Notes under the pieces: generated by a model
What the model was told of the DNA's origin: nothing
Databases searched by the model: none
The model's input: the letters and a program-made list of their open reading frames with translations, nothing else
Translations under genes and position numbers: made by a program
Shown here: one piece after another, positions 88 through 9,283 of the stretch
How positions within the stretch are numbered: the first letter of the stretch is position 1
Layout: each line of letters opens with the position of its first letter
Origin: a virus
Reading direction: 5' to 3' (one strand)
DNA: 21,411 bases
IMG/VR virus record: IMGVR_UViG_3300042888_002524
Coordinates: 1-21,411 of that record

Positions 88-516
88 TTAAATTTTATCT
101 TTGATGTGTGAGCCATGTACACGTACTTGTATATGGCCGTTGTAATAATCTGTTGATTCCAATACTCGTCTTGCAAATTGCTCTCGTGCCTCAATGTATG
201 AGCATTCACTTTTGCTTTTGCAATAGTAGAGTATCTCTCTGGTGAAGTTTGCGGTGCCTAGTTTGATTACGTCTGCGGTTAATTCTGGGCTTGACCCGTA
301 GTACTCACGCCAATCACTATCGATCTTGGTGCGTATCTTTTTCCGCTTTTTGATGCCGTTCTTTTGTTTTACTGTCTTGTACGTTGTTTTTGAAAATTTT
401 GCTAATTTTTTGCCTATGTACTTGCGTCCAGATAGATTATTTGTGATCTGATAAACAAATCCCACACATTCTTCGGGTAAAGTCTCAACTGGGGTGTCTT
501 GATATCGCCATGTCAT
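88..516 (-). CDS. GIY-YIG nuclease-domain protein
   Basis: This 142-aa protein has the hallmarks of a GIY-YIG endonuclease domain. The first strand carries GFVYQITN (residues 19-26, the GIY half) and is followed by RKYIGKK (31-37, the YIG half). A catalytic Arg is likely at R93 in FTREIL, and the metal-binding Glu is likely E109 in SYIEAREQF. Between the halves and the Arg there is a strongly basic stretch (about 38-64) that could contact DNA. The length fits a bare catalytic domain with little room for a separate DNA-recognition module, unlike long homing enzymes such as I-TevI. In T4-like phages such proteins are usually homing (Seg-like) or repair nucleases. It is the last complete gene of the minus-strand operon, 42 nt after the aminotransferase-like gene and without overlap, so it may be a later addition. 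The domain is fairly secure; a homing role is inference. Confidence 0.75.
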   Translation of the reverse strand: MTWRYQDTPVETLPEECVGFVYQITNNLSGRKYIGKKLAKFSKTTYKTVKQKNGIKKRKKIRTKIDSDWREYYGSSPELTADVIKLGTANFTREILYYCKSKSECSYIEAREQFARRVLESTDYYNGHIQVRVHGSHIKDKI

Positions 517-558: not shown

Positions 559-1620
559 TTAATATAAATTGAGTTTTTTCAAGAGATTTTGATTTTCGTA
601 TAACATGCCTAAATTATAGCGGTTTTGTTGCTGGTTAAACGGGCTACACCATGCAGTTTCACTGTGTCTGCCGTGGGCAGTGTAGTCAGTTCCCAGGCCA
701 AAATGCACCACTTTTGTAGGCTCAAGTCCTAGTTTGCTACACCAGTATTTCTGCTGATCTTGGTATTTTTTAACATTGTAGTCTGGGGGAAACTGTTGTA
801 TAATGTCCCATGCAAGTCCTGCACTGAGTCGATTGCAGATGTTCTCATCATTGCTCATCTGCATGGGATCTTCAGGTTTGATCTTGCACATGCGCACTGC
901 TATTTTGGCACACTGCACAGGGAAAGTCTTTGAGAAACTAAACGTAATTTGTTTGATACATTCTGCTGACAAATCAATATCCACAGCACCTGCACTGTTG
1001 GGCAAGTAGATAAAATCCACCAGCAGTTCTATGCCTGTGCGATTGCACTGTTCTATTAACCAGTCAAAGTCTCGGTGTTTGTCTCCAGTTAGTGCAAAAG
1101 GATAACTGCAAATGCAAATGTCTCCGGGACGCAGTGTATCATCTTCGATATACGCCCAGTTGGTACCAATGCGTGTCCATATGTCCATGTGCCACCAATA
1201 GTCGCCACGAAACACTCTGAAACGACGGTTATTATTGAACAAATAAAAATTAATAAATGATTCTTGTGTGCCGGCACTGAATCCCACGTACCGGAACAAT
1301 TCAAAGTTTCTCAGTTGATAATTTGCACTGCTGGCAATCCATGCAGGAAACTCTGATTCAAATTGTTCCACAATCCAGGGATTTAACAAATGCCGACTGA
1401 GATGAAGTCCTTGCACATAGTCAATGACCTCAGGATCTTTGATACTGTTGCCACTGCTGAATATACTGCGACTTCTGGCACGTACTGAATCAAATTGATC
1501 AGTGGCAGGAAATGCCCAGACATATTCGCCTGGTACGTCCAGCTGATCAGTGGCACTGGCCTGAGCCAATGTCCATGCCAACTGCCTTACTTGGTCAACA
1601 TCAGTTGTAAACGTTTGCAT
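559..1620 (-). CDS. PLP-dependent aminotransferase-fold protein, diverged paralogue (copy 1)
   Basis: This 353-aa protein looks like a short fold-type I PLP enzyme (class I/II aminotransferase-like). Visible landmarks are FSAGTQE (114-120, the cofactor-phosphate turn), the Asp that would pair with the pyridine nitrogen in LLVDFIYL (D202), and the Schiff-base Lys in SFSKTFP (K231). It aligns along most of its length with the protein at 2044-3060, sharing RRFR..RG-Y and HxDxD segments and the Lys loop, so the two are paralogues. The Arg that normally follows the Lys loop (SxSKxFxxxxLRxG) is replaced: here the text is CAKIAV, with K239 at that site. Either the cofactor site is altered or this copy is less active. 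Family members are usually near 400 aa, so the C-terminal small domain is abbreviated. Its start overlaps the end of the preceding small gene by 34 nt. No signal peptide is seen, so it is probably cytoplasmic. The substrate is unknown. Confidence 0.72.
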   Translation of the reverse strand: MQTFTTDVDQVRQLAWTLAQASATDQLDVPGEYVWAFPATDQFDSVRARSRSIFSSGNSIKDPEVIDYVQGLHLSRHLLNPWIVEQFESEFPAWIASSANYQLRNFELFRYVGFSAGTQESFINFYLFNNNRRFRVFRGDYWWHMDIWTRIGTNWAYIEDDTLRPGDICICSYPFALTGDKHRDFDWLIEQCNRTGIELLVDFIYLPNSAGAVDIDLSAECIKQITFSFSKTFPVQCAKIAVRMCKIKPEDPMQMSNDENICNRLSAGLAWDIIQQFPPDYNVKKYQDQQKYWCSKLGLEPTKVVHFGLGTDYTAHGRHSETAWCSPFNQQQNRYNLGMLYENQNLLKKLNLY

Positions 1621-2066
1621 GCTTGTTGATAATATTCAAAATCTTCTTCCCAATGTGGGTCATTGTTGTTTCTTTTATGTCGACTGTGCAAAATCCAACG
1701 CAGCGGTGGATTTTCAAAATTCAATTGAAATTCACCGTTGGGACCAAAAAACAAACAACTTTCATATACTTGTCCGTTGTCGGCAACAAACTGACTGTTC
1801 CATATCAGTTCCTGCAAATCATATCCATCTAACATACATCGTTCTAGTTCAAAGCTGCGATCTCGCACAATTACACCATGTTCTACCTTGGTATGTTCGG
1901 GCAGTTTGTTCCAGTGTTGGATTGTTAATCGACACGGACCCAACGCAACATTGATATCATACATATGTTCAGGCTGCGTTATTCCAGAAAACAATATTTC
2001 TTCATTGACTCGAATTGTGCAACAAGGTTCGTCAATGATATTTTTAAATTGCAGTTGTAGTTTCAT
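1587..2066 (-). CDS. small, probably beta-rich protein of unknown function between the two aminotransferase-like genes
   Basis: This 159-aa protein has no catalytic motif I can name. The N-terminal two thirds alternates short hydrophobic and polar stretches (KLQLQFKNI, CRLTIQHWNK, GVIVRDRSFEL), as a beta-sandwich would. A conserved-looking FGPNGEFQLNFENPPLRWIL segment (107-126) leads to a charged, helical C-terminus. It resembles small jelly-roll or carbohydrate-binding-like proteins I recall from marine phages, but that resemblance is weak and from memory. The gene overlaps both flanking aminotransferase-like genes (23 nt with the one before, 34 nt with the one after), so all three are very likely translated together, and a shared complex or pathway is a reasonable inference. 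No signal peptide or membrane segment is seen. The ATG at 2066 is chosen because it is the first in frame and continues the overlap pattern. Confidence 0.65.
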   Translation of the reverse strand: MKLQLQFKNIIDEPCCTIRVNEEILFSGITQPEHMYDINVALGPCRLTIQHWNKLPEHTKVEHGVIVRDRSFELERCMLDGYDLQELIWNSQFVADNGQVYESCLFFGPNGEFQLNFENPPLRWILHSRHKRNNNDPHWEEDFEYYQQACKRLQLMLTK

Positions 2067-3060
2067 TTTTTAACAATTCAAACAAGTCCCAGTTTTCAAA
2101 AACTGAGGTTAGACTGATTCTATTTGCAAACAAGTTAGGATCAAAGCTCAATTGATATTGCTGCAATAAATTGCTGCGGTTGTATTCATTCCATGTGGCA
2201 TCGCCTGTTGCAAACAACACAGAGTCACTGGCAGTGATGCCCACAGTGTTGCAAAATTCCAACTGTTGTTCACGGTAGTGATTGTAAATGTAATCACTGC
2301 TGTAGTTGCGAATCAACATGTTGCCAACTTGTGCAGACAGTGTGTTGTTATAATTTATATTGTCATGCAGACTTTGTCCATCAAATACACCGGAACGAGT
2401 ATACCGCATACCAATGCGCAAGTTGGCAACAGGAAATGCTTTGCTCAAACTAAACGCCACAGTATCAACGCATTCAGCAGTGACATCCAATTCAATACCG
2501 CCACTGATAACATAGTAGCATGCATCAATCAACACTGGTATGCCTAGCTGATTGCAGCGCAAAATGGCAAGATCATAATCTGGATGCATACTACCTGTGT
2601 CACAGAACGGTGCAGAGATTACCAAGGCATCACCGGTGACCAATGGATCATTGTCAGTGATAAAACTCCAGTCAACATCGTTGCTGAGCCATGTTTTCAA
2701 GTGATAAAAATATTCACCTACAAAACATCTAAATCGTCGGGTGCGATGTCTAAAGTAAAAACTATCAAAGGCCTGTGTGGTACCTGCGCTAAAATTAGGT
2801 TGGTATTGTGCCAGGCCTGTGATACGATTACTGCTGTGCTCTTGCAACCAAGGTGCAAAGTCTTGTTTGAAGTAGGTCAAGTGGTCAGTATGTTGCCAAG
2901 TATTGCGAGCCAATACATGATTGACTTTGTGCAAGATCGATATATCACTGATGGCTTTTGAGCCTTGATACAAGTGGCGTACCTGATCGCGATTGACATA
3001 AAAGTCTGACACATCGCGAGCAGCAATTACCCATGCTAGTTGTTTATGCAATGTCAACAT
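2044..3060 (-). CDS. PLP-dependent aminotransferase-fold protein (copy 2)
   Basis: This 338-aa protein carries a full set of fold-type I PLP signatures: SAGTTQAF (91-98) as the cofactor-phosphate turn, D179 in VLIDACYY for the pyridine nitrogen, the Schiff-base lysine K207 in SLSKAFP, and R215 in NLRIG for the phosphate. That spacing is typical of class I/II aminotransferases and related decarboxylases, although the chain is shorter than the usual 380-430 aa. It is the better preserved of two paralogues that flank the 159-aa gene. Its start overlaps the end of gp46 by 17 nt and its end overlaps the next gene by 23 nt, placing it in the recombination operon. Possible roles are amino transfer to a sugar, nucleotide, lipid or amino acid during infection; nothing in the sequence settles the substrate. 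Assignment to the fold is firm; the reaction class is inferred. Confidence 0.8.
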   Translation of the reverse strand: MLTLHKQLAWVIAARDVSDFYVNRDQVRHLYQGSKAISDISILHKVNHVLARNTWQHTDHLTYFKQDFAPWLQEHSSNRITGLAQYQPNFSAGTTQAFDSFYFRHRTRRFRCFVGEYFYHLKTWLSNDVDWSFITDNDPLVTGDALVISAPFCDTGSMHPDYDLAILRCNQLGIPVLIDACYYVISGGIELDVTAECVDTVAFSLSKAFPVANLRIGMRYTRSGVFDGQSLHDNINYNNTLSAQVGNMLIRNYSSDYIYNHYREQQLEFCNTVGITASDSVLFATGDATWNEYNRSNLLQQYQLSFDPNLFANRISLTSVFENWDLFELLKNETTTAI

Positions 3061-5125
3061 CTGTGTTATAACTGGTAAAACCGTTTTCTTTCACTACCTT
3101 GAGTATGTTCTCCACACGTCCAGCCAGTTCGTCTCTATGACTTACAAGCCATATACTCTTGTGGCGCTCACGAGTCATTTTCTTCAATAGTGCAAGACTG
3201 GCTTCTACACCCTGTGTATCCAAGCCCGAATCAATCATCTCATCAATGAACAAAATATTGATGGGATGATACAAACTTTCCCACACATCGCGGAATGCCC
3301 AACTCATACTGAGGATCAAACGATTGCGTTCACCACGACTCAAGTTGTCAAAGTCCAGCTCACGTCCCAGTTCCTCAATACTCACACTCAAATCGTTTTG
3401 GAACTTCACAGTGTGTGGCAATCCAATGCGATCCAGATAGTGGGTGAGTCGTGCGTTCAAGTAACTCAAGTTCTGATCAATAATTTTCTTGCGAACAAAA
3501 CTGTCTTTGCTGGTCAATAACTTCAATAAAAATTCTTGATGGTCTTGTACTTTGGTTAGTTCATTGATCCGGTTGTAGTCTACTGTCTGCAAGGCTTGTT
3601 GTTGCATGTCCTCAATTTGTTCGCTGTAAGGATCAGTTTCGGCGTGTTTGCTGGTAATCTGTTGCAGCAAATTGTTGACCTGTGTGGAGTGTTTGATGGC
3701 CTGTGCTTCTGTGTCGTAGTGGGTCACAGGCTGTGTGCCTAGTTCCACAGTGACATAACCCACAAGTTGTTCAGCATAAGGATCAGTTTCTGCTGCTTTG
3801 GCACTGATCTTTTGTTGTATGTTTTCTAATTCACTGCTGTGACGAATAGCTTCAGCTTCAGTCTTGTAATGTGTTGTGGGTTTGGTGCCTAACTCACCTA
3901 GTGCCTGAAGTGCTGAAGTATTTTCTATCCACTGACCATTGGTGGCCAGGGTTTGTAGTGCAGACTCTTGCAATGCTTTTCGTTTGGTTTCCAGCACAGT
4001 TTCGTGGGCACCGTCGTGAAACTCTTGACCGCAAGCATAACACTTGTGTGCTTCTAGTTCGGCAATCTCTGCTCGGAGTTTGTCCGAAGTCTTTTGTTCT
4101 CGGGCTTCATCCGCTACACAACGAGCAATGAGTTTTTCAAGTTCGGCAATGTCCTTGGCTCGTTGATTGTATGCAGCCAAGTCTTGATGTGCTTGTAGCT
4201 CTGCAACAATATCAATATGACTGAGTTGATCATAACTGACTTTTAATGCAGTAATTTCTTTGGTTTGTGTTTGTTGCCATGCAGTTTGATATGCCAGCAG
4301 TCTACCATGTGCATCTGCTTGCTTTTTGCGTTCGTTCCATAGTGCAAGTTCTTTGTGTGCCAACAGCTCTGCGTCGATGTTGACTCGGGCTAGCTCATCG
4401 TATTGACCCACTAGATATGCCAAGTCACTGTTGTATTTCTTTTGCCACAGGCCTTGACGTCGACGCAGACTTTCAATTTGTTCTTCAATTCGCTTGTTGG
4501 CTTCTTGAACAGCACGTACTCTAAACTCCTCAGAAGTAATAGCGTCCTTGGTTACTCTGTTGAGTTCTTTGATGCGTTCAGCACGTTCGCTCAACACTGT
4601 GATGCCCAACAACTGTTCAATAATAGTTCTCTGTTCATTGGCCTTCAAACTCAAAAACGGTTCAGTGTAAGTGTTCAGGGCCAGGATATGTTTGAACATG
4701 TCGTGACTCATGCCAAACACACGCTCAATGGCATCTTGTGTTTCTCGACTGTCGCCTTGTGCATTATCTGTAACAGTTTGTTCTTCACTGTCTACATAAA
4801 AACGCAACACATTGGGTTTGCGTCCTCGTTCAATCTTGTATGTCTTGCCGTTGACAGAAAAGTCCAAACTGACCAACATGCCTTTGGTGTTGGTCTTGTT
4901 TACTAGATTGTCCTTGCGAATGTTACTCAATGCTTGTCCGTACATGGCATAACTCAATGCATTGATGATTGTGGTTTTGCCTGTGCCATTGCGACTGCCA
5001 TCACCACCTAGGTCCAAATTTTCACCCAATACCAATGTAAGATCTTGACGGTCAAAGTCAATGCCTTGTGTGGCTGCACCCACACTCATGAAATTACGTA
5101 CAGTGAGATTTTTAATGTGTATCAT
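3044..5125 (-). CDS. 46: gp46 recombination nuclease ATPase subunit (SbcC/Rad50-like)
   Basis: This is the ATPase partner of gp47, forming an Mre11/Rad50-like complex that resects DNA ends for phage recombination-dependent replication. The order is classic: Walker A GDGSRNGTGKTT (41-52), a long coiled coil, a zinc hook CYAC (C362, C365), the return coil, ABC signature LSRGER (595-600), Walker B INILFIDEM (622-630) with D-loop SGLD, and an H-loop Ser-His at 662-663 (WLVSHRDE). At 693 aa it is longer than T4 gp46 (560 aa). The extra length lies in the coiled-coil arms, which contain internal repeats (residues 411-454 and 461-504, and a looser pair near 243-267 and 299-323). The start at 5125 overlaps the SGNH gene by 14 nt; no strong Shine-Dalgarno is visible, so translation is probably coupled. 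Confidence 0.97.
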   Translation of the reverse strand: MIHIKNLTVRNFMSVGAATQGIDFDRQDLTLVLGENLDLGGDGSRNGTGKTTIINALSYAMYGQALSNIRKDNLVNKTNTKGMLVSLDFSVNGKTYKIERGRKPNVLRFYVDSEEQTVTDNAQGDSRETQDAIERVFGMSHDMFKHILALNTYTEPFLSLKANEQRTIIEQLLGITVLSERAERIKELNRVTKDAITSEEFRVRAVQEANKRIEEQIESLRRRQGLWQKKYNSDLAYLVGQYDELARVNIDAELLAHKELALWNERKKQADAHGRLLAYQTAWQQTQTKEITALKVSYDQLSHIDIVAELQAHQDLAAYNQRAKDIAELEKLIARCVADEAREQKTSDKLRAEIAELEAHKCYACGQEFHDGAHETVLETKRKALQESALQTLATNGQWIENTSALQALGELGTKPTTHYKTEAEAIRHSSELENIQQKISAKAAETDPYAEQLVGYVTVELGTQPVTHYDTEAQAIKHSTQVNNLLQQITSKHAETDPYSEQIEDMQQQALQTVDYNRINELTKVQDHQEFLLKLLTSKDSFVRKKIIDQNLSYLNARLTHYLDRIGLPHTVKFQNDLSVSIEELGRELDFDNLSRGERNRLILSMSWAFRDVWESLYHPINILFIDEMIDSGLDTQGVEASLALLKKMTRERHKSIWLVSHRDELAGRVENILKVVKENGFTSYNTDVDIA
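3614..3895 (-). repeat. diverged tandem duplication inside the gp46 coiled-coil arm
   Basis: Two copies of a 44-residue unit (gp46 residues 411-454 and 461-504) start exactly 50 residues apart. Each begins ELGT-P-THY-TEA-AI and ends AETDPY-EQ. The DNA copies (3764-3895 and 3614-3745) are similar but diverged, so the duplication is old and kept at protein level. Confidence 0.85.
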
Positions 5126-5822
5126 GTGCTAAAATGTATTTTGCAATGTGTTCATGTCCTTGGGACAAATAGTGACCAGTGGCACCAGTGGCAAACGGGT
5201 CTTTCATCAACCACCATGTGTTCCAACCAATGTAACGATCAAAATTTATTTGTGACAACAGTTGCTGAATTTCTTTGTGTTCCTGATACAATTGATCATC
5301 ATTCATGAGATCAAAGCACAATAGCGATTGTACACTATAATTAAAGTTTTCCCAAGAAGTAGTCCACCGATCAATTTGATTGTTGTCGGTGTTCACCATT
5401 ACGTATGGTTTCTTTACAGACTCTAAATACCGCTGCACCATGATTATGTTTTGTAACCATAATTTAAAACTATACAAGTCGTTGTGCCATACAGCATAAT
5501 GCATTTTTCCATAATTGACAAAATTTGAATCATTGCCATACAGACTGTTGGCTAAATTGGAATTGAAATTTACAACATAATTGTTGTCAGCTCGATATCG
5601 TGTGAATCTTTCGATATAAGTCCAAGCAATATAAATTTTATCAAACTCATGAGCATTTTTTATTGCTCTGTATATGATGTGATCATTTGCATTGCCACTC
5701 ACAGCATCATTCAAAAAGTCACAACCAACAGTGTTGGCCAAAATTGCAGGCCATGCTTGAGATTTAGGTTGGCTTAAATCATCGCCATATGTGTGACTAC
5801 ATCCGTTGAAATACAATCTCAT
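5112..5822 (-). CDS. SGNH/GDSL-family hydrolase-like protein
   Basis: This 236-aa protein opens with FNGCSHTYGDDL, the block I motif of SGNH hydrolases, with Ser9 as the likely nucleophile. Block II is represented by the GN pair in AVSGNAND (G43-N44). A block III-like strand reads IYIAWTYIERF (63-73), with W-T-x-x-E-R where classical members have GxND. Near the C-terminus TGHYLSQGHEHIA (216-227) resembles block V, with H217 the likely catalytic His. Family members cleave esters on carbohydrates, lipids or acyl groups, or act as acyltransferases. There is no signal peptide, so it should act in the cytoplasm or be packaged in virions. It sits between 47 and 46, overlapping gp47 by 4 nt (ATGA) and gp46 by 14 nt, where T4 has only small genes. 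The fold is well supported; the substrate is unknown. Confidence 0.8.
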   Translation of the reverse strand: MRLYFNGCSHTYGDDLSQPKSQAWPAILANTVGCDFLNDAVSGNANDHIIYRAIKNAHEFDKIYIAWTYIERFTRYRADNNYVVNFNSNLANSLYGNDSNFVNYGKMHYAVWHNDLYSFKLWLQNIIMVQRYLESVKKPYVMVNTDNNQIDRWTTSWENFNYSVQSLLCFDLMNDDQLYQEHKEIQQLLSQINFDRYIGWNTWWLMKDPFATGATGHYLSQGHEHIAKYILAHDTH

Positions 5823-6835
5823 AAGTTTTGGTATATTTGCAACAGCAGTTTGTTGTCGTAGAATTCACTTTCAATATTGGTGAGTTGGTCTGTGACAATT
5901 TGATCCACGCTTTCAAATTTCACATCACCAGGTGCAAGGTCCACGTCCACTCCTGAAGTTTTGTTTGGTATCAAAGCCATTTCACGTAGTTGATAGTCTC
6001 GAATGAATGTTTCTTTGATGAAATTGGCTTCTTCGTATGAAATTTCAATATCTAAATTTACACGCACATGCATCCGGGGAGCCAGCAGCGTGGCAGCATT
6101 GTCAATCAAGTTGGCCAAGCCATGTACTCGGTATCTGGGTTGATCAGGCCAGGCATGATATTCGGGCTCCTTGCCCCATTCTAGTATCATCATGCCACGT
6201 TCGTCATCACCAGCGTCAGCATAGTTGTGAGGAAAGCAGTTGCCAATGTAGGTGATGTTGTTGGCAGTTTGACGTTTGTGAAAGTGTCCGGTAAACACAT
6301 GATCAAAGCCGCCAAAGTCTCCACGTTGTACTGTGCCATGATCTGGCATCTGTACCATGGCATTCATGTAGTAACCGGGCAATTCGAAATGTCCAAACAT
6401 GTACCGGCCGGTCATCTTTGGAATACGCTTGTGGTCATCGCCGCATAGCCAAGGAGCAATAACAACGTCACCGTCACTGAACCAGTCGTTACATATTGTA
6501 ACATTTGGGAGATGTCGTGCCCATTCCACGCTCTGTATATCGCGGTTATCTCGGTAATATAAATCGTGATTGCCAGGAATAAAATATACCCGATCAAAGT
6601 TGTCATTCATGTGCTCCAAGGCTCGAAGACTGTAGCTCAGGGTAACAATATTTAAGCTGGCCCTGTTGTTGTGCCAGTCACCAAGAAACATGCAAGTTTC
6701 GCAACCTTGTTCTTTTGCAGTAGCGGTTGCCCATTTGACAAAGTCCAAACAGTCGTCATTGTGTGTTTGGCTGTTGCTTTTAAGTCCGAAATGTATGTCT
6801 GTGAAGACCGCAGCCTTCTTGAATAGATTTGTCAT
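5819..6835 (-). CDS. 47: gp47 recombination endonuclease subunit (Mre11/SbcD-like)
   Basis: This is the metallophosphoesterase nuclease that works with gp46 on DNA ends. All phosphoesterase motifs are present in order: FTDIHFG (D13, H15), FLGDWHNNR (D53, H55), PGNHD (N89, H90, D91), GHFE (H149) and TGHFHKRQ (H184, H186). The length of 338 aa nearly equals that of T4 gp47 (339 aa). It starts 12 nt after the gp55 stop and ends with an ATGA overlap into the SGNH gene. Conserved motifs are intact, so it should be active. Expression from the promoter upstream of gp55 is likely, as no other promoter is evident between them. Confidence 0.97.
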   Translation of the reverse strand: MTNLFKKAAVFTDIHFGLKSNSQTHNDDCLDFVKWATATAKEQGCETCMFLGDWHNNRASLNIVTLSYSLRALEHMNDNFDRVYFIPGNHDLYYRDNRDIQSVEWARHLPNVTICNDWFSDGDVVIAPWLCGDDHKRIPKMTGRYMFGHFELPGYYMNAMVQMPDHGTVQRGDFGGFDHVFTGHFHKRQTANNITYIGNCFPHNYADAGDDERGMMILEWGKEPEYHAWPDQPRYRVHGLANLIDNAATLLAPRMHVRVNLDIEISYEEANFIKETFIRDYQLREMALIPNKTSGVDVDLAPGDVKFESVDQIVTDQLTNIESEFYDNKLLLQIYQNL

Positions 6836-7771: not shown

Positions 7772-7799
7772 ATTGTAGCACAAATACAACAATTGTCAA
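7772..7799 (-). promoter_or_regulatory. sigma70-type promoter for the gp55-47-46 operon
   Basis: On the minus strand a perfect -35 hexamer TTGACA (7794-7799) and a near-perfect -10 TACAAT (7772-7777) are separated by 16 nt. Transcription would begin near 7765, giving a leader of about 20 nt that includes TGGAG (7756-7760) before the ATG at 7744. Such a promoter would be read by unmodified host RNA polymerase early in infection. No other promoter of comparable quality was seen in the minus-strand operon. Confidence 0.82.
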
Positions 7800-7855: not shown

Positions 7856-9283
7856 ATGGTCACACGAGCCCCAGCTGAACAAAATCCCGCAGTAGACCCT
7901 GAACTGCCACAGCCGCCAACAACTACACCAGGACCGCCTGTGACGGATCCGGAACCTTTGTCTCCATTGCAAACTGGTGATGTGAATCCATTTGGGCCAG
8001 TGGTCAATGTTGATCTGACTCGACAACCTGAACCTGTGCCTGCTGTGGCTCCAGGTGCTGACTCGCCATTTGGTGGTGTGTTTTTCAATGATGCAACTGC
8101 ACGAGCTCCTACACCTGTGGCTCCAGGTGCAACCAGTCCATTTGGTGGTGTGTTTTTCAATGATGCAACTGCACGAGCTCCTACACCTGTGGCTCCTGGA
8201 GCCACATCACCATTTGGTGGTGCAGTCTTCAACGATGCAACTGCACGAGCTCCTACACCTGTGGCTCCTGGAGCCACATCACCATTTGGTGGTGCGTTTT
8301 TCAATGATGCAACCGCAAGAACTCCTACACCTGTGGATCCCACAGTTGATCCTGCTGTGGCGCCCGGTGCAACCAGTCCTTTTGGTGGTGGTGCTTTTAA
8401 CCGTGCGGCAGCACAAAATCCTGAGGCAGTGGAAGCTGCACTGCAAGCCGCGCAAGAAGCACAACTCCGACAACAAGCAGCAGTGCAGGCTGAGTTTCAG
8501 TCTCCAGGCAACAATGACTGGCGTGTAAAATTGAAACTGGCGTCTGGGGCCACATATCTGTACAAAGACGCAGATGCAAAGAATGGCATATTGGCGCCAT
8601 TGGCGGCCAGCAATGGTGTGGTGTTTCCCTACATGCCCACCATATCAACCTCGTACAATGCCAACTATGATCAAACAGACCTCACACACTCAAATTATCG
8701 TGGACAGTTTTATAAAAGTTCATATGTGGGTGACATCCAAATTTCTGGAGAATTCACTGCGCAAGACACAGCTGAAGCCAATTACTTGTTGGCAGTGATA
8801 CATTTCTTTCGCTCAGTGACCAAGATGTTCTACGGTGCCAAAGATGCTTTTCGTGGTACCCCGCCTCCACTGGTATATCTCATGGGCCTGGGACAGTATC
8901 AATTCAACAATCAACCTTGTGTGGTCAGAACATTCAACTACAGCATGCCCAACAATGTTGATTACATACGCACCAAGCCCAACAACTACAATGTGAATCT
9001 AAACGGTCGGCAAGAAAAACCACAAACTGGCCTCAACCCCATTGAGGCTGTGATTGGTCGACTGCGAAATTCTGGGCTCAAAAAAGGTGCCTTGCCCAAT
9101 GTTCCATCACAGACTTTGCTGGATCTACAAAGTGTAACCAACATTGACAATAGTACCTATGTGCCCACTCGTTGTGACATATCCATCACTCTCATGCCCA
9201 TACAAACACGCGACCAACAAAGCACGTTGTTCAACATGAAAGAATATGCCAGTGGACAATTGCTCAAAGGAGGGTTCTGGTAA
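7856..9283 (+). CDS. tail/baseplate structural protein with N-terminal PFGG repeats (tube cap/initiator-like)
   Basis: This 475-aa protein has two parts. Residues 1-215 are rich in Pro and Ala and contain four near-identical 24-residue units plus a diverged fifth, followed by a Gln/Ala-rich helix (190-214). Residues 220-475 form a folded domain with FTAQDTAEANYLLAVIHFFR, a PPPLVYLMGLGQYQFNNQPC segment and a C-terminal beta stretch DISITLMPIQTR. This layout (helix with aromatic pairs, then a strand-rich 'conditions of the tube' section) resembles T4 gp48/gp54, the tail-tube cap and initiator, but no signature proves it. The ATG at 7856 has AGGA 7 nt upstream. The gene is first in the structural operon and joins gp53 by a TAATG overlap. 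A structural role is near certain; the gp48/54 equivalence is tentative. Confidence 0.75.
   Translation: MVTRAPAEQNPAVDPELPQPPTTTPGPPVTDPEPLSPLQTGDVNPFGPVVNVDLTRQPEPVPAVAPGADSPFGGVFFNDATARAPTPVAPGATSPFGGVFFNDATARAPTPVAPGATSPFGGAVFNDATARAPTPVAPGATSPFGGAFFNDATARTPTPVDPTVDPAVAPGATSPFGGGAFNRAAAQNPEAVEAALQAAQEAQLRQQAAVQAEFQSPGNNDWRVKLKLASGATYLYKDADAKNGILAPLAASNGVVFPYMPTISTSYNANYDQTDLTHSNYRGQFYKSSYVGDIQISGEFTAQDTAEANYLLAVIHFFRSVTKMFYGAKDAFRGTPPPLVYLMGLGQYQFNNQPCVVRTFNYSMPNNVDYIRTKPNNYNVNLNGRQEKPQTGLNPIEAVIGRLRNSGLKKGALPNVPSQTLLDLQSVTNIDNSTYVPTRCDISITLMPIQTRDQQSTLFNMKEYASGQLLKGGFW
8045..8428 (+). repeat. 72-bp coding tandem repeats (24-aa VAPGATSPFGG units)
   Basis: Four contiguous 72-bp units (8045-8332) encode VAPGA-SPFGG-FFNDATAR-PTP with few changes. 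After an 8-residue insertion a fifth diverged unit follows (8357-8428). A weaker precursor unit around NPFGPVVNVDLTR precedes them. DNA identity between units 3 and 4 is high, pointing to recent copy-number change. Confidence 0.92.
9266..9273 (+). promoter_or_regulatory. strong ribosome binding site for gp53
   Basis: AAAGGAGG lies 9 nt before the ATG at 9283, inside the last codons of the upstream gene. It is the strongest Shine-Dalgarno noticed in the window and fixes the gp53 start. Confidence 0.85.

Follow-up and report, generated by a model that had tools for sequence, protein, structure and literature searches.

Fold-type I enzymes use signature Asp, Lys and Arg residues for PLP, and class I/II of this fold (PF00155) includes HisC, CobD, C-S lyases, Plu4 and RohP/MppP. 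Phages M6 and ViI hypermodify thymidine with a combination of PLP and radical SAM enzymes, which reshape amino acids attached to 5-hydroxymethyluracil. CBM60 and CBM36 modules (2xfd, 2xhh; PF16841) are calcium-dependent, carbohydrate-binding beta-sandwich modules of glycoside hydrolases. The T4-like marine Pelagibacter phage Mosig encodes a putative aminotransferase (Mosig_00079) in a cluster with oxygenase, radical SAM, carbamoyltransferase and DegT-type genes. Many radical SAM and PLP genes of unknown purpose occur in uncultured T4-like phages, and a conserved partner common to such dissimilar enzymes, at a defined swap site, would help to find their targets.

The locus described here encodes two paralogous PLP-family proteins, AT1 and AT2, on either side of a small CBM60-fold protein. 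The initial annotation knew of no described system with this layout, and our search of the open-access literature found none. The comparisons below point to an undescribed mix-and-match modification system.

Organisation of the operon

The window (the whole stretch of DNA analysed) is a 21.4-kb virus record of a T4-like phage. Its features are as follows:

88..516, minus strand: SegE-type GIY-YIG protein, 3' border of the cassette slot (PF19835, E 2.7e-32; position kept in relatives)
559..1620, minus strand: AT1, paralogue of AT2 by alignment, 353 aa (K231, D202, Y205, S228, K239, R334)
1587..2066, minus strand: CBM60-fold putative partner protein, 159 aa, with invariant K54 and nearly invariant D69 (model, alignment)
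2044..3060, minus strand: AT2, fold-type I PLP-family protein, 338 aa (PF00155 above cut-off, model, residue alignment); key residues K207 (Schiff-base equivalent), D179, Y182, S204, R215 and R314
3044..5125, minus strand: gp46-like recombination endonuclease subunit (SbcC-like), 5' border of the cassette slot
5112..5822, minus strand: SGNH-hydrolase-like/DUF6071-like protein in a second variable slot between gp47 and gp46 (weak sub-cut-off Pfam match; GCSHT motif by eye)
5819..6835, minus strand: gp47-like recombination endonuclease subunit (SbcD-like; synteny with phage Paride)
6848..7792, minus strand: gp55-like late sigma factor (synteny with phage Paride; listed start TTG, the true start may be downstream)
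7772..7799, minus strand: candidate extended -10 sigma70-like promoter ahead of gp55 (11 of 12 matches)

The order along the minus strand is gp55-like sigma factor, gp47, SGNH-like gene, gp46, AT2, the 159-aa protein, AT1 and the SegE-type gene. The gene overlaps reported previously are exact in the ORF coordinates, all on the minus strand: 34 nt between AT1 and the 159-aa protein, 23 nt between the latter and AT2, and 17 nt between AT2 and gp46. Given the single strand, these overlaps and the strong promoter candidate before gp55, it is plausible that AT2, the small protein and AT1 are co-expressed with gp46, gp47 and gp55. A motif search of the window found no T4-type late promoter (TATAAATA); relatives may use another motif. 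The plus strand carries a long run of large ORFs that appear virion- or tail-like by eye and by synteny. One of them (7856-9283) contains a tandem array (8043-8340; 72 bp, 4.1 copies, 88% matches) that encodes a 24-residue APGATSPFGG-type repeat.

In the Pseudomonas isolate Paride (Arenbergviridae), gp55, gp47 and gp46 likewise form a run opposed by baseplate genes, and the gp46 of this phage is 44% identical to that of the window. Only opposite-strand genes lie 3' of gp46 in Paride, which is without the PLP unit or the radical SAM modules described below.

Fold, active site and ancestry of AT1 and AT2

AT1 and AT2 align over their full lengths (29% identity, 152 bits, E 6e-48) and are true paralogues, as had been claimed. 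The AlphaFold2 model of AT2, built from a 32-sequence alignment (pLDDT 90.2, pTM 0.89), contains the fold-type I core that the initial annotation had set as a check; AT1 is placed in this fold through its alignment to AT2. Comparison of the model with solved structures using Foldseek identified hundreds of PLP enzymes (E down to 2.5e-10), and VIA-align superposed it at near full length on PLP enzymes with Z ~22. The matches include HisC-like aminotransferases, kynurenine aminotransferases, C-S lyases, the O2/PLP desaturase Plu4 and the O2/PLP arginine hydroxylases RohP and MppP. Because all of them are tied, the fold does not tell the reaction type of AT2; decarboxylase, lyase, desaturase and hydroxylase all have it.

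The signature residues named previously, D179, K207 and R215 in AT2 and D202 and K231 in AT1, were correctly assigned: they align with D222, K258 and R266 of aspartate aminotransferase, and the residue of AT1 that corresponds to R215 is K239. The equivalents of Asp222 and Lys258 (D179 and K207) are invariant in all 98 homologues, which comprise AT1, AT2 and single-copy forms, and those of Tyr225 and Arg386 are found without exception in the 86 AT1 and AT2 proteins. The Arg386 equivalent (R314/R334; substrate carboxylate) is kept in only 6 of the 12 single-copy forms. Across 36 AT2 and 50 AT1 proteins, G93, Y117, D179, Y182, K207 and R314 (AT2 numbering) do not vary. As in class I/II aminotransferases, the equivalents of Lys258, Asp222, Tyr225, Ser255 and Arg386 are all present. 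AT1 and AT2 are predicted to bind PLP, with K231 and K207 as the respective putative Schiff-base lysines.

In other respects the pair departs from class I/II aminotransferases, with which it shares 8–17% identity. The equivalent of Asn194, which hydrogen-bonds to the PLP ring oxygen, is absent and is replaced by Cys in 36/36 AT2 and by Ala in 50/50 AT1 proteins. The Arg266 equivalent is Arg in AT2 and Lys in 37 of the 50 AT1 proteins; both changes count against the modification cassette proposed below. The phage proteins also differ in forming a duplicated pair with a partner protein and in having only viral relatives among those found. AT2 passes the curated cut-off of PF00155 (Aminotran_1_2; 21.6 versus 19.7 bits), which matches 13 of 32 members of the family at E up to 1, and AT1 of the window has no Pfam match.

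In a maximum-likelihood tree AT1 forms one clade (100/100) and AT2 another (92/78), and therefore the duplication is older than the sampled pair-carrying phages; the positions of the single-copy ATd forms, which sit on long branches, are unsure. Two scans of 84,980 species genomes, which depend on short conserved peptides, found no relative of either protein in cells, and plasmids likewise yielded none. Because no cellular relative was found in these scans, AT1 and AT2 are not considered recent host enzymes, and a cellular origin was rejected. Phages hence possess a PLP-fold family whose cofactor site is altered, with Cys or Ala at the Asn194 position, and for which the sampled cellular genomes yielded no relative. 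Among isolated phages the sole AT-like match is the distant, AT2-like Mosig_00079, a single-copy protein of 262 aa that is 25% identical to AT2 over part of the protein and has no CBM60-fold partner seen adjoining it. Searches of isolated phages with AT1 (two groups), the small protein (three kinds) and the B12-radical SAM protein found no real counterpart; Streptomyces phage SF3 matches the last only over part of its length.

The 159-aa protein adopts a CBM60 fold

The model of the 159-aa protein (pLDDT 89) is beta-rich, as had been guessed, and ends in two C-terminal helices. Its beta-sandwich matches those of vCBM60 2xfd (Z 11.9, rmsd 2.4, 101/109 residues) and 2xhh (Z 11.3), and only these two CBM60 entries exceed Z 6.2, the score of the next match, which has an unrelated fold. 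The strand motifs LTIxHxN and FELxxIxxDG of CBM60/CBM36 modules match the small protein as well. PF16841 (CBM60) gave weak matches in 3 of 20 relatives (best E 0.0076, 17.1 versus a cut-off of 28.2 bits) and none for the protein of the window; a PDB profile search with the small protein alone returned nothing useful.

The calcium-site stretch of 2xfd reads FTND...RD, and we take the Asp of its ND to be a calcium ligand in CBM60. At this place, after the F-x-N motif, all 84 small proteins carry a lysine (K54), positioned by short profile anchors on both sides whose own scores are not significant. G111 is also invariant (84/84), and Asp69 is present in 82 of the 84. Because the calcium-site Asp is replaced and Pfam scores stay below the cut-off, we name the protein CBM60-fold and not CBM60, and because the replacing Lys is invariant, we do not expect calcium-type sugar binding as such. 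Unlike CBM60/CBM36 modules, the protein stands alone, carries the two helices as an addition, and would be partnered with PLP and radical SAM enzymes and not with a glycoside hydrolase module.

Arrangements of the unit in uncultured phages

Scanning IMG/VR with profiles recovered 73 loci; a single profile covering all small proteins was too diverse for such a contig scan. Each of the 36 distinct AT2 genes is followed downstream by the small protein and then AT1, which answers the proposal to look for the three-gene order in related phages and metagenomes. Of the 50 distinct AT1 genes, 49 have the small protein before them; in the remaining case the contig starts within AT1. This recurring order and low dN/dS values against relatives (0.06-0.18 for AT1 and AT2, ~0.04-0.11 for the small protein, with several dS values saturated) indicate that the trio is not a product of chance.

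Four arrangements were observed, with gene neighbours named partly by eye. In arrangement A, which includes the window, the order is gp46-AT2-small protein-AT1-segE. In arrangement B, AT2-small protein-AT1 lies behind a glycosyltransferase-like gene in a QueD/HesB-like neighbourhood. Arrangement C (18 marine-type loci) comprises the small protein and AT1 only, in a QueD/HesB-like or carbamoyltransferase-linked neighbourhood. Arrangement D comprises shorter, single AT2-like genes without the small protein, which overlap or abut a SPASM radical SAM gene in five loci. Whole-record searches of the group C records, which are fragments, found no AT2 elsewhere; one of them (G025) has one further, distant AT-like gene. 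The three-part unit proposed in the initial annotation stands as regards its gene order and the partner in the middle. As an obligate trio it was rejected, since AT2 is missing in group C and AT2-like genes occur by themselves or with SPASM radical SAM genes. Because the marine group keeps only the small protein and AT1, these two form the core pair.

These contexts bear on whether AT1 and AT2 are conventional amino-acid aminotransferases of ordinary auxiliary metabolism, with the small protein as an unrelated passenger. The PF00155 score of AT2 and the retained Lys258, Asp222 and Arg386 equivalents would suit such enzymes. We nevertheless consider this explanation quite unlikely, as the small protein adjoins AT1 almost without exception in several genomic contexts and also pairs with other enzymes, and the AT proteins have no cellular relative among the genomes scanned. 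Less likely still is a model in which the small protein forms part of the virion or of an adhesin, with the enzymes decorating the virion. The CBM60 fold of the protein, the tail-fibre-like genes adjoining the unit in groups B and C and the location of some paralogues in structural-looking regions fit this idea; against it, the unit in the window and over 20 relatives overlaps DNA-metabolism genes and not tail genes, and every enzyme has its own copy of the small protein.

The gp46-segE slot exchanges PLP and radical SAM modules

The interval from gp46 to segE serves as a cassette site. In relatives it holds either the plain PLP unit, the PLP unit with a B12-radical SAM gene and a second small-protein paralogue placed before or after it, the PLP unit with a 300-aa radical SAM gene, or, in place of the PLP unit, a run of B12-radical SAM gene, small protein and radical SAM gene. 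Each enzyme module in the slot brings its own small-protein paralogue. Pfam Radical_SAM was confirmed in three representatives; the B12-binding domain was below the cut-off in one, and SPASM just below it in another. In the collected loci, most of which were fetched with PLP or radical SAM queries and are biased accordingly, a neighbouring PLP-type or radical SAM gene accompanies 74 of the 75 distinct small proteins. Searching 34 whole records added 12 further small-protein paralogues, half of which (6) adjoin radical SAM genes and half (6) do not, according to gene calls and our own reading. Sharing of the small protein between enzyme classes is thus real but not universal.

The main rival to a recognition partner is a substrate. 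Here the PLP pair, the B12-radical SAM enzyme and the SPASM radical SAM enzyme would each modify their cognate copy of the small protein, in the manner of RiPP maturases, and the modified protein would act in infection. Radical SAM enzymes of the B12 and SPASM types frequently have peptides or proteins as substrates, and the own paralogue in every module together with the invariance of K54 and G111 is in keeping with this role. Other observations disagree: the conserved positions are mostly fold-type residues, the small protein is without a leader-like region, the copy beside AT1 is otherwise similar with or without AT2, and fold-type I PLP enzymes rarely act on folded proteins. On balance we judge a substrate role unlikely, while giving it more weight than the other alternatives.

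A putative modification cassette

From the folds, the conservation of active-site residues, the gene order, the exchange of slot contents and the sharing of the small protein, we infer a phage modification cassette in which interchangeable enzymes work with a CBM60-fold recognition partner on a glycan or sugar-like target. We favour this reading tentatively and with somewhat less than even confidence. AT2 and AT1 would act as ancient paralogous fold-type I PLP enzymes, probably as a heterodimer or in two successive steps. The 159-aa protein would bind AT1 as an accessory and either recognise the target or present it. In relatives, related partners would serve the unrelated chemistries of B12-dependent and SPASM radical SAM enzymes, so that the slot after gp46 may swap the chemistry and keep the recognition principle. 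Several small-protein paralogues in other gene regions, where no enzyme adjoins them, count against a partner role.

The likeliest target class would be a glycan or sugar-like group that the phage handles, whether on the host surface, on the virion or soluble. It is favoured because of the CBM60 fold and the sugar-type neighbours in groups B and C. A glycosyltransferase-like gene overlaps the unit in locus L041, a carbamoyltransferase overlaps the small protein-AT1 pair in groups B/C, and genes judged by eye to be DegT-like, epimerase-like and PIG-L-like lie near the unit in L054. The window, on the other hand, has no glycosyltransferase or other sugar gene near the unit, which, like the replaced calcium-site Asp, counts against a sugar target. 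Aminoglycoside pathways combine PLP enzymes, B12- and SPASM-type radical SAM enzymes, and carbamoyl- and amidinotransferases, and the enzyme mix at the unit recalls them by analogy.

The mix of enzyme classes and the location inside a DNA-metabolism operon would also suit a pathway that hypermodifies DNA bases as in M6 and ViI, on which the literature search returned only reports that describe base-modifying genes of the M6 type. Such hypermodification is less likely because a gene of the thymidylate synthase/hydroxymethylase family (PF00303) occurs in only 4 of 34 records, most of them fragments. None was detected in contigs of 151, 125 and 148 kb that carry the unit (and may be fragments), and TET/JBP was found in 0 of 17, in a search run without a positive control. 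A CBM60-fold partner is not known to have a role in these pathways, which also weighs against this explanation, and we regard it as improbable.

The modification cassette could be one instance of a more general, undescribed phage system, in which the invariant-Lys CBM60-fold family would serve as a common recognition or acceptor protein for paired PLP, B12-radical SAM and SPASM radical SAM enzymes, whose genes would occupy fixed swap sites in uncultured T4-like phages. We put this forward as a possibility that is more doubtful than the cassette itself.

Second variable slot and related loci

The interval between gp47 and gp46 also varies, holding the SGNH-like gene in the window and, in relatives, a different SGNH-like gene, a SPASM radical SAM gene or genes of unknown kind. 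Directly before gp46 in an 84.5-kb phage contig (L008, 1-3803) lie genes for an AMP-ligase-like protein, a TctC/Bug-like solute-binding protein and a Rieske ring-hydroxylating dioxygenase pair, of which the alpha subunit was confirmed. Three small-protein-like genes lie close together in a 354-kb contig (L134, 2393-4627) with no adjoining modifying enzyme. Single AT2-like genes overlap or abut SPASM radical SAM genes in L071-L075, L145 and L146, and in L146 an amidinotransferase-like gene (by eye) adjoins the pair. Loci L041, L045, L052 and L139 share a common order of QueD-like gene, 380-aa protein, glycosyltransferase-like gene, variable cassette, HesB-like gene and DUF115-like gene, with tail-fibre-like genes adjoining; the cassette in L139 consists of a B12-radical SAM gene and a small protein.
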